Shown: piece after piece, positions 54,960 through 58,942 of the stretch | How positions within the stretch are numbered: the first letter of the stretch is position 1 | Layout: each line of letters starts with the position of its first letter | Source: Glossina fuscipes | Taxonomy: Eukaryota; Arthropoda; Insecta; Diptera; Glossinidae | Reading direction: 5' to 3' | NCBI RefSeq assembly: GCF_014805625.2 | Contig: NW_023998465.1 | Location: 1,054,361 to 1,118,360, forward strand | DNA length: 64,000 bases | Position numbers and translations under genes: made by a program | The notes under the pieces: model-generated | Database searches by the model: none | Told to the model about the DNA's origin: nothing | Seen by the model: the letters and a program-made list of their open reading frames with translations, nothing else

Positions 54960-55296
54960 TGTAGGTCGCAAAGGAATTGAACATTCCCTTAAAAATTTCC
55001 CGCTCTTTTGGTGTTAAACTTCCATGGATCTTGAAATATTGCTCTTTTGACATCTCACTGTCTATGCACAAGAAAGAAGATACTCCAAATTACGTCTTCA
55101 GGAATCTAATAGCTGTAAAAACCCTAGTATTGGAGAGTACTGGTTGGAATCTTTTATACACAGACGGCTCAAAATCTTTTGGCCTGCCTCCTGCTTGTGC
55201 CGTGCTAGATGCTACAGGGCAGATTTTTTTCAATCACATTTTTCACGAAAGTACCTCAACGTTCACAACCGAAGCCAGAGCTATCCTTGGTCACAT
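54960..55296 (+). pseudogene. LINE RNase H-domain relic (I/R1-like group)
   Basis: The plus strand is open from about 54,977 to 55,306. It contains W-N-L-L-Y-T-D-G-S-K-S at 55,147-55,180, with the catalytic aspartate in T-D-G-S, then C-A-V-L-D-A-T-G-Q and S-T-F-T-T-E-A-R-A-I, with the glutamate of the T-(A)-E-A box. This is the RNase H layout of I-type LINEs: TDGS then (F/T)-x-A/T-E-A about 40 residues later. Upstream text (I-P-L, M-D-L-E-I, C-S-F-D) fits the variable linker. The domain stops abruptly at G-H-I-G-E where the minisatellite begins, so it is truncated by that array. The lack of stops in 110 codons suggests it is younger than most relics here. Confidence 0.7.
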
Positions 55297-55650
55297 AGGA
55301 GAATAAGCGTACAAAAATTTGGCCACATACGAGAGTAAGCGTATATATTCTCAATAATTCGAAAAATGTGAGAATAAGCGTCCAATTTGTTTACATTTGT
55401 TGAGTAATTGTTCAAGTATTTGTATAAAAATTTGGCCACATACGAGAATAAGCGTACAAAAATTTGGCCACATACGAGAGTAAGCGTATATATTCTCAAT
55501 AATTCGAAAAATGTGAGAATAAGCATCCAATTTGCTTACATTTGTTGAACAATTGTTCAAGTATTTGTATACAAATTTGGCCACATACGAGAATAAGCGT
55601 AAATATTCTCAAAAATTCGAAAAATGTGAGAATAAGCGTCCAATTTGTTT
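55297..55650 (+). repeat. Minisatellite array, second locus of the 11-kb family
   Basis: The same GAGAATAAGCGT(A/C) core as at 10,969-11,395, with contexts '-ACAAAAATTTGGCCACATA' and '-TCCAATTTGTTTACA', plus ATTCTCAATAATTCGAAAAA. Cores occur at about 55,299, 55,333 (variant GAGAGTAAGCGT), 55,371, 55,444, 55,479, 55,516, 55,589 and 55,627. Period is about 145 bp, with a shorter internal period. Units at this locus are more alike than those at 11 kb. Confidence 0.88.
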
Positions 55651-57240
55651 ATTATTATTATTTATTTTACATAACTCTATGTATTTCGTGTTCTACGCAG
55701 CTAATTGTTTATCTTTAATCATTCGAAATATCTTCTAGCTTGTCTATTTGTACCTGAATGACACGGACCTCCTTTAACATCACCTTTCAAGAATATTTCA
55801 AGTTCAGCTGGCATTAATTGCGAAACATAGTCACTAGTCTAAAAATTTCACAGCATTTCTAAATAGTCAGTCAAGTCAAATGGGCTTCTTACCTATTCTC
55901 AGCAATGTATAAGTGATTTTAACGGATTAGGGCAGTATTGTTATCAATTTTTCACAATCTTTTTTATATATTTATTTATTTATCTTAATTCTACTTATAC
56001 ATGCAACTCAACTAAACAAATAACAGTCGAGTTCAATTGGCTCTTAATGCAAAACTTTTATTAATTAATAATAAAACTTAGTATAAATATAATAAAACAA
56101 ATAGGAAGAAAAAAAAAAGAAAAAAAGCATGTACACCATCAGCATGCAGCTACACTTACAACTGGTACAGGATCAAATTGCAAATGAACCCCTAAGCCAT
56201 CGCAAACATGCATAAGCTTGGCAACCGATAATAATTAACAATAATTCATTTTCGAATCGTAACGACTTTTTAAGGATAAAAGCTAGTTTAAGTACGACAT
56301 AGGTAAATAGCGCGTATTAAGCAATGTTGCTTTAATGGACTTTAAAGAGTCCGATAATGAGAATAGACTTTATTTAGATTCTTGCAAACGACTCTGAGCG
56401 GATTAAACAGCTCATAATTATATTTACATTGACTAAGCTTAACCAAGATAAAGCGTCTGGAGAAGCGGTTAGGGACATTAAAGCTTATTTCACCAAGTAA
56501 GGAAGGCGAGCCAAATAGCACCATTTATTACTTTGATTACAAAGGAAACGCCAAGAACACACCTACGTTTCTCAAGAGACGGTAAGGACAGCAGAAGCAA
56601 CCTATTTTCATAGGGAGGCAAACGTATCCCAACCTAAATTTCTAAGGGCAAATAGCAAGAATTGCTTTTGAACAGATTCGATTGAATCTACGTAGCACCC
56701 ATATGAAAGAGACCACACAACTGAGGCATACTCGAGTATGGGTCTAACCAAACAAATGAACGCCTAAATCTGTGATCGAATCGACGTCCTCCAACTTATG
56801 CGAACCTATGAAATACTGAGTAATGAATGACTTTCTTCTTGAGAAGGAAAGCTTCTTACATTTACTCAGATTTAGCTTCAGAAGATTCATAGAGCAACAT
56901 GCAACAAAATTATCCAAGTCACCTTGAAGCTGATGTGATTGGGATTCAACAGAGAAGGAAGAAAACAGTTTCACATCATCAGCATACATTAAGATCTTGC
57001 TGGAATTAACCACCGATGGGAGATCGTTAATGTATAAACTAAATAAAATGGGACTTAAGTGACTTCCTTGAGGTACGCCAGACATAACGGGGAATTCATC
57101 CGAGGTGATGAAGTTAAACAAAACCTTGAAGGATCTGTTGTGCAGAAAAGAGCTTATCCATTTCACTAAATAGAAAGGGAAGGCAGAGACTTGGAGTTTG
57201 AAGATAAGTAAGTTATGGTTAACCATATCAAATGCTTTGC

Positions 57241-57249
57241 TTAAAACAG
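57241..57249. repeat. Target-site duplication, left
   Basis: TTAAAACAG, identical to 58,296-58,304. A preceding C is shared as well (57,240 and 58,295), so the duplication is 9 or 10 bp. Removing one copy and the DNA between restores the LINE text at this point as seen in the related copy B. Confidence 0.93.
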
Positions 57250-57306
57250 AATTTTGTGGCGTGGGTTCCTGCCTGAAAGGCTTAACCCCACGGTGGCCCA
57301 AGCCAC
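57250..57306 (-). other. 3'-terminal nested stem-loops of the non-autonomous element
   Basis: On the minus strand there is a hairpin GTGGC-TTGG-GCCAC (57,302-57,306 with 57,293-57,297). It is followed by an outer stem CGTGGGGTT/AACCCACG (57,284-57,292 with 57,260-57,267, one bulged G) that encloses GCCT-TTC-AGGC (57,278-57,281 with 57,271-57,274). Ordered hairpins at the 3' end are the expected recognition site for a LINE reverse transcriptase. Confidence 0.75.
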
Positions 57307-58195
57307 TTTTAAGCGTACTACGCCCCCTGGCGAGTTAGACAATCCCCACAGAGTAGGGGCCTAAACAGCACCAGAGTCCAGAACAGTTTATTGTGTATGG
57401 AATAATAAACCCCACTCTGGTGAATGGCGAGGCCTAGCTGCACTCAATTGTTCCATTTTAGCTAGGAACTCGCCAACCACAACCACCACAAATACTCCCC
57501 GAAGGGCCGCACCCAAGCAGTCAGGACTCACAAATTGATCAACTGACTGCTTCCGCCATAAGGCTTCCACTGTGCTGTTGATCAATTACCACCATTACCC
57601 GCAGGCATCCGTGACATGTGTTCAAAAGTAAAAATAGGTAAAAGGGGAAAACTTATTCGTCATATCCCTTTTCCATTTTTGCATGTATTAATTAATTTAC
57701 CAGACATTTTCTATCAATCGGCCAAAGGGAAGGCCGTCCGTCAATTCCTTTTTGCATTAATAGTATAATTAATTTATTTATTTATTACGACTTAAGGACA
57801 AAGTCCATCATATACCCGCAGGCATACGTGGCTTTGTGAGGCGAGCTTCCTGACCCCCGTGGCTCCCAGTTTGTTTTGCAAAGCCTTATGGCATACTTTG
57901 GGCGGTTGTTAAAAACAACCGTACTTGCTTCGGATTCTCCATACTTTCCTGGTTGCCAGCCCCAAGTGAACTACTTTTCTTCAAGATATATAGGTCTCGG
58001 GTATTGCACTGAACATGGTAGACTAGTCTAATGCACTCTACCATGCACTCGCTAGATTACTACCTTCATTGTACTTAAATACCATTCAATATATTTCCTC
58101 GGTAGTAACTAGCTTATTGAGTAAGAGCTCTTCTTCCAGCCAACCCCTCCACCATCTCTCAGAAACTCGTCGCCGAGTTAGCAGCCCAAAACCTT

Positions 58196-58295
58196 AAACT
58201 CTTCTTAGCCGGCCGAAGCCGTTGCCCGGGGATCACCGCTGGGAGGTGAGAGTTTCGGCACATCTATGCTTCTCATCAAAGCATAGTTCATCTCC
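58196..58295 (-). ncRNA. HDV-like self-cleaving ribozyme
   Basis: All core elements are in HDV order on the minus strand. P2 is AAACTCT (58,255-58,249) with AGAGTTT (58,202-58,196), 7 perfect pairs. P3 is CACC/GGTG around a 7-nt L3 loop TCCCAGC (58,244-58,238). The J1.1/4 strand is GGGCAAC (58,227-58,221). P4 is GGC-TTCG-GCC (58,220-58,211). J4/2 is GGCTAAG (58,210-58,204), with the presumed catalytic cytosine at 58,208. P1 would be the first bases GGAGAT (58,295-58,290) with ATCCCC (58,233-58,228), including one A-C mismatch. J1/2 is extended by a hairpin CTATGCTT/AAGCATAG. GGGCAAC and GGCUAAG match HDV strands as I know them. The P1 mismatch may reduce or abolish activity in this copy. Confidence 0.85.
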
Positions 58296-58304
58296 TTAAA
58301 ACAG
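58296..58304. repeat. Target-site duplication, right
   Basis: TTAAAACAG, partner of 57,241-57,249. It directly abuts the first G of the ribozyme, as expected when cleavage defines the 5' end of the inserted RNA. Confidence 0.93.
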
Positions 58305-58942
58305 TGTAACTAACATTTGTGCGAGAGCCACTAGAAAAAGCTTTGAAAACTTGACAGGTAAACTCTAACAAGTTGGTGACTGTAGATCGCCCTTTCCGAA
58401 AGCCGTGCTGGTGCGGAGAAATATACGAATTAATGGCAAAGGCCAAATGCTGAGCCACAATACGCTCGAACAACTTGGGCAAGACACTCAACTTGGCTAT
58501 GCCTCTGCAGTTCTCAACCAATTGCCTACTTCCACTCTTGTAGATAGGAATAAGGAAACTACTCTTCCAACATGAAGGGAAAACACCTAAATTCAAGGAC
58601 AGGTTAAAAATCTTCGAGATCACACCGCATAACTCGACAGCGCACGATTTAAGTACACATGATGGAAAACCATCAGGTCCAGGCGAACAGCTATATTTTA
58701 GAGAACTCAACCCTTTAAAAACGTCATCTTCCGAAATAACCAAGTTAGGTGTTGAAACCGAGTTAGTTATAGGATATGGGTAGTTCAAAATTTTTGTTTG
58801 TAAAAAACCAATGAATCAAAGCGTAAAGAAAAAATACTTCTTTTACTTTGGATTCGCGGCACTTTCTTCTCAAAGTATATTATAAATTCACACACTGTAA
58901 AGAAAAATAGCCACGAAATTCAACAAACAATTAAAATATTAA

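Follow-up and report, generated by a model that had tools for sequence, protein, structure and literature searches.

On the minus strand of the window (the whole stretch of 64,000 nucleotides of Glossina fuscipes DNA that was analysed), the interval 58295-58196 very likely forms the 5' part of a retroelement of the SIDE or SINE kind, non-coding and non-autonomous, whose RNA would be released by a ribozyme and copied by a LINE. The sequences hold an HDV-like fold with paired changes, a fixed 5' end, target-site duplications, 5' truncation, a 3' stem-loop and a target preference.

All the HDV strands named in an earlier note on this DNA are present in the interval, and the 9-bp target duplication that it had reported, CTGTTTTAA, is found on both sides of the element (Table 1). 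The empty site, made by joining the flanks with a single CTGTTTTAA, restores an unbroken frame of 338 aa with reverse transcriptase motifs (motifs by eye), so the boundaries of the element are firm. The LINE reverse-transcriptase frame split by the insertion is found at 56744-57334 and 58288-58815 (minus strand). A copy of the type named D below (L077) likewise adjoins a LINE of that kind, in the opposite orientation (by eye). Local direct repeats around ttggccacatacgagaataagcgt are also seen by eye in the window at 55290-55660.

No stop-to-stop frame longer than 68 aa lies wholly within the window element, which thus has no coding capacity. The window copy has three A-box-like matches at up to one mismatch, but neither a tRNA gene (ARAGORN, bacterial code) nor, with up to two mismatches allowed, a B box. 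Since both the tRNA gene and the B box are missing, a SINE transcribed by Pol III from an internal promoter is unlikely, and transcription from outside followed by ribozyme release would be the natural reading.

Table 1. Features of the element copy in the window (positions of the window; alignment columns refer to 75 distinct 5' ends).
Feature	Position	Strand	Remarks
Target-site duplication, 5' copy, CTGTTTTAA on minus strand	58296..58304	-	9 bp
Whole non-coding element	57250..58295	-	1046 bp here, 5' end at 58295
P1 5' strand remnant GGAGAT	58290..58295	-	first two G's of family GGGG absent
J1/2 hairpin (P1.2), CTATGCTT/AAGCATAG	58264..58286	-	at least 8 bp, -9.5 kcal/mol
P2 5' strand AAACTCT	58249..58255	-	helix 97.7% paired; columns 47-98 UA 49, CG 22 of 75
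P3 hairpin CACC/GGTG, 7-nt L3 TCCCAGC	58234..58248	-	P1.1 partner CC in L3
P1 3' strand ATCCCC	58228..58233	-	
Joining strand GGGCAA, with P1.1 GG	58222..58227	-	columns 72, 74-76 invariant in 75
P4 hairpin CGGC-TTCG-GCCG	58210..58221	-	columns 80-85 CG 60, UG 6, UA 4, other 5 of 75
J4/2 GCTAAGA, putative catalytic C at 58208	58203..58209	-	column 90 C in 75 of 75
P2 3' strand AGAGTTT	58196..58202	-	
Hairpin with GCGA loop, directly downstream of ribozyme	58164..58179	-	in most type A-D copies, by eye
Internal domain, types A-E	57393..57532	-	by alignment; type D by eye
3' stem-loop, CGTGGG/CCCACG and GCC/GGC around TTAA/AGG internal loop	57260..57292	-	
3' tail CCACAAAATT	57250..57259	-	window copy without TTAAACCCTTG
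Target-site duplication, 3' copy, CTGTTTTAA	57241..57249	-	9 bp

The fold in a single copy is weak evidence, because a loose HDV-fold descriptor, with one mismatch allowed in P1, matches about 0.2 sites per window by chance (13 sites on both strands of 60 first-order Markov random windows, and one site in the window itself). A first, strict descriptor matched neither the window nor 10 random windows, and one with four perfect P1 pairs missed the window copy and found the copy L002. A chance resemblance to the HDV fold, which this background rate might suggest, is nevertheless extremely improbable given the paired changes and coincident 5' ends of the family described below. The case rests on what the copies conserve and on their paired changes, not on the fold of one copy.

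The search with the Rfam HDV-like models on the minus strand, which the earlier note had proposed, gives a match below cut-off. RF02682 (HDV-F-prausnitzii) aligns over 58264-58196 (minus strand) through the strands CACCUC...GGUG, GGCAACGG and CCGGCUAAGA, with an E value of 9e-4 in a 1.2-kb search; its score of 31.9 bits is below the cut-off of 44 bits, and the P1 of the model is not matched by the real P1 of the element. No Rfam model matches at its cut-off across the whole window. Throughout the genome, 62 RF02682 matches scored out of 11281 candidates reach 29.6-38.7 bits, all below 44, and sub-cut-off matches occur also in 6 of 14 control genomes. RF00094 gives no match genome-wide at E values up to 10.

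The search for copies covered the animal's own genome (366 Mb, 709 contigs). At least 43 genome matches to the whole element were obtained with 40 of 945 candidates scored, most of them aligned to 58295-57260. Many of the matches listed are 98-100% identical to the window copy, which makes recent activity probable; the family is also large and dispersed. A 33-nt ribozyme core is found at 287 places with up to three mismatches; for the 21-nt 3' end there are 327 places with up to one mismatch, reversed-pattern controls giving none for either; the first 100 places of each were listed individually. Flanks of the other copies are unlike one another, and the window copy lies in the LINE reverse-transcriptase frame, not in 28S rDNA. 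Copies of different types (L012, L018, L066, L072, L080, L109, L145 and L147) are seen by eye in near-identical sequence, ...TTACTATACCTAAATTT, mostly at the same position, a site that by eye is an insertion hot-spot within another repeat.

Diverged types, lettered A to E for this analysis only, were reached through 40 fetched RF02682 matches. Type A is that of the window copy, type B is about 835 bp long (L081-L083), type C comprises L067-L070, type D has GGCGAAG as J4/2, and type E is seen from its 3' part. Element length in the family is about 0.8-1.2 kb. The ribozyme is common to types A-D, and types A-E share the internal domain and 3' end as far as those parts are seen. The internal domain of about 140 nt at 57393-57532 (minus strand), which begins GACTGCTTGGGTGCGGCCCTTCGGGGAGTA, aligns among types A, B, C and E while much of the flanking sequence does not; it is possibly a structured RNA. 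A coding reading of this domain was considered and is doubted: an indel separates type A from type B in it (by eye), so it is probably not coding.

The 5' ends of the copies lie at one place, as had been anticipated. Of the 42 loci examined, 32 reach the minimum duplication of 9 bp, with lengths of 11-16 bp, and the ten without a clear one were excluded from the count of 5' ends; L001 (9 bp) brings the total to 33. GGGG stands at the 5' end in 28 of these 33 copies, exactly at the junction in 21 and behind one to four extra bases in seven. The remaining five, L001, L003, L014, L015 and L057, have less than GGGG, with one G ambiguous in L014. The extra bases before an intact GGGG in some copies speak for a templated GGGG. 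In R2, whose ribozyme cuts at the element end, 5' junctions are described to vary in this way (PMC3774820).

The earlier note had equated the predicted cut with the insertion boundary in the window, which does not hold: the family has GGGG and the window copy only GG, so the predicted cut of the family would lie 2 nt 5' of the first base of the window copy and the boundary is 2 nt short of it. The P1 remnant of the window copy, GGAGAT/ATCCCC, contains one A.C mismatch. At the other end, TTAAACCCTTG or a variant of it is present in all 29 other copies printed and missing from the window copy (11 nt of 3' tail). Judged by its sequence, the window copy is 5'-truncated by 2 nt and 3'-deleted, and as a predicted ribozyme it is probably poor or weakened.

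The HDV-like fold proposed for the window copy is kept by the family. Alignment A3 is made up of 75 distinct 5' ends; it omits L029b, L120 and L076, whose 5' end is lost, L134, L139, L141 and L142, which the script left unplaced, and further L179 and L184-L193. The nested double pseudoknot order P1, P2, P3, P1.1, P4 is kept in all 75 sequences. For P1 (GGGGA/UCCCC), P1.2, P2, P3, P1.1 and P4 together, pairing reaches 94.8% of cells and falls to 31-49% in controls with slid partners. Cells changed on both sides number 31, with a mean of 8.8 in shuffled alignments and none of 500 shuffles as high. They are found in P2, where columns 46-99 are CG in 66 sequences, UA in two and UG in two and columns 47-98 exchange UA for CG, in P4 (columns 80-85), and in the J1/2 helix, where columns 17-29 are CG in 70, UG in three and UA in two of the 75. 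Covariation counted by pairs is modest: double changes affect five pairs where shuffles give 2.6, with 17 of 500 shuffles as high, and a slide of -2 gives six. Because the copies are related, the paired changes represent few independent events, four to six by our own estimate. The compensatory changes looked for among copies are thus seen in P2, and the GC pairs of P1 show none among the 75 distinct 5' ends.

The exact form of P1 had also been stated differently. A contiguous 6-bp P1, GGAGAU/AUCCCC, drawn from the first six bases of the insertion, is a register-shifted, mismatched substitute and is rejected as the P1 of the family: it is 81.1% paired, and 67 of the 75 sequences cannot form its third pair (columns 5-68). 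A register of GGGG/CCCC plus AU/AU around a 2-nt bulge is 91.1% paired and the 5-bp register GGGGA/UCCCC 86.7%. P1 is thereby either 4+2 bp with a 2-nt bulge or 5 bp, shorter than the 6-7 bp of most HDV-like ribozymes, a length described as usual and not strictly defining (PMC4908430).

A short, bulged P1, together with Rfam matches that all stay below the cut-off, would suit a 5' fold that is real and non-catalytic, either a structure for reverse transcriptase binding or packaging or a decayed ribozyme. Such a fold is unlikely, since the nucleotides expected in the active site are kept: T54 and C55 of L3, G72, C74-C77 and C90, the first C of J4/2, are invariant in 75 of 75 sequences. By analogy, we take C90, at 58208 in the window, to be the putative catalytic C. 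P1.1 is 96% paired in the 75 sequences and the genomic 5' ends lie at the predicted cut, which also speaks for a ribozyme.

The family 3' end consists of a six-pair stem, the TTAA/AGG internal loop and the tail TTAAACCC. In its alignment, made without L179 and with L176 outside the search pattern, 27 distinct forms are 93.4% paired, slid controls giving 20-41%. Fourteen cells are changed on both sides, with 2.9 in shuffles and none of 500 as high; counted by pairs there are three double changes against 1.9 in shuffles, 120 of 500 being as high. We regard this stem-loop as a probable recognition hairpin for a reverse transcriptase.

Frequent copies begin at an internal break point, and 16 of 20 such breaks carry a duplication of 10-17 bp. 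These come from two sets of loci. Of the 26 exact 3' ends listed on C1, 21 lie in 20 loci that have an exact 3' end and no exact core listed upstream, the other five having an exact core upstream; 12 of these loci have their break within the fetched stretch, 10 of the 12 being duplicated. Twenty more loci (C2, C29, C31) give eight breaks, six of them with a duplication. L093, L164 and L169 have no duplication at the break, and L094, which holds two tails, had its break left out of the scoring. L097 is 5'-truncated with about 100 nt of foreign filler between duplication and element, as after a template jump (by eye). Duplications of 32 copies start with CTG in 16, TG in nine, CTA in three and otherwise in four. 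LINE-type retrotransposition is what the truncated copies and the covariation in the 3' stem-loop suggest.

Five of 90 distinct 5' ends (L029, L040, L058, L111 and L133) have the 3' tail of another copy within 45 nt upstream and start about one target-duplication length behind that tail; in L193 a type E copy is followed by a ribozyme (by eye). Insertion head to tail would follow from the 3' end and the duplicated target re-creating ATT|CTG. Such neighbours could also be expected of a repeat propagated as DNA only, a MITE or a satellite, in which the fold would be incidental. This is very improbable: the duplications vary in length between 9 and 17 bp, 5' truncation accompanies a fixed 3' end, double changes occur in two RNA structures, and the one copy compared, L002, has no terminal inverted repeat (4 of 25 letters alike).

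The partner LINE was looked for in several sets of loci. None turned up in the 40 loci sampled for a 3' end that has no exact core listed upstream, in the 13 loci fetched out of 24 places with a variant 3' stem-loop, in stretches of 6.5-7.5 kb behind three B-type ribozymes, or in the 10 loci fetched out of 44 matches to a diverged 3' domain. All these searches yielded only further copies of the same superfamily. Translation of L164, L093 and L097, which have no clear duplication, and of four variant-end loci reveals no reverse transcriptase by eye, and the further 1.4 kb upstream of L173 (L183) contains no ribozyme match.

Within the preferred explanation, there is about an even chance that the element is a true SIDE, derived by internal deletion from an autonomous LINE with this same ribozyme. 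R2 SIDEs and NARTc are described as having originated in this way (PMC3414825, PMC4035085), the frequent 5' truncation is LINE-like, and L179 shows that internal deletion occurs, although no LINE with the same 5' or 3' end was met in the sampled loci, which cover part of the copies. L179 (G000:C346:4331050-4331730, minus strand) is an insertion of about 143 bp that, by eye, consists only of the ribozyme, partly deleted around P4, and the 3' stem-loop, the two being joined at TTAAG microhomology; its duplication TGTTCCAAAACGT is 13 bp long. It is a natural minimal element. A long-lived, true ribozyme-SINE lineage, in which a non-coding RNA that never was a LINE keeps just two functional ends, a bulged-P1 ribozyme and a 3' stem-loop, and parasitizes an unrelated LINE, while head-to-tail arrays arise via ATT|CTG, is a tentative and rather doubtful reading.

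For the ribozyme-headed retroelement that we privilege, cleavage, co-transcription and a LINE partner are what we infer. Read-through transcripts of host loci would include the element, and its HDV-like ribozyme would cut just 5' of GGGG and so define the 5' end of the RNA released. The reverse transcriptase of some LINE may bind the 3' stem-loop and tail; it would favour targets that start, behind the nick, with (C)TG or CTA, copying the RNA by target-primed reverse transcription.

Two traits that the earlier note had called novel have precedents in the literature. The first is the extended J1/2 hairpin: a structured J1/2 that accelerates cleavage is described in the mosquito ribozyme drz-Agam-2-1, where a stable J1/2 helix (P1.2) is a strong activator (PMC4908430). 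That ribozyme shares with the Glossina element the HDV-like fold and a paired J1/2 drawing P1 and P2 together, but it has a P2 of 12 bp instead of 7 bp (PMC4908430). The stability of the J1/2 helix in the Glossina family goes from -9.5 kcal/mol in the window copy to -3.3 in one B form.

The second trait is the short element itself, known from ribozyme-headed R2 SIDEs (PMC3414825) and from NARTc, RIME and SIDER (PMC4035085). R2 SIDEs and R2/R1 hybrid SIDEs of Drosophila are likewise short and non-coding, with a 5' HDV-like ribozyme and a LINE-type 3' end; their 5' junctions are variable and the hybrids have 14-bp duplications (PMC3414825). They reside in 28S rRNA genes and derive from R2/R1 (PMC3414825), whereas the Glossina family is dispersed with a preference for (C)TG sites, and the sampled loci yielded no parent for it. 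NARTc, RIME and SIDER, which carry the Pr77/L1Tc ribozyme, are also non-autonomous, headed by an HDV-like ribozyme and spread genome-wide; they belong to trypanosomatids as relatives of L1Tc/ingi (PMC4035085). Pr77 is described to double as a promoter (PMC8190864). Hammerhead retrozymes are non-autonomous retroelements with a self-cleaving ribozyme as well, but they use a hammerhead and circular RNAs in place of the 5' HDV-like fold seen here (PMC7229834, PMC4918200). No description of the Glossina family was found among the listed titles and abstract openings of an open-access collection. The general idea is already known.

The two HDV models of Rfam miss their cut-off on this Glossina family, in which a single HDV-like ribozyme is available in many naturally varying forms whose 5' ends are mapped. 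If the proposed explanation is true, the family would be a large and dispersed addition to the few non-autonomous elements that may exit host transcripts by means of a ribozyme.
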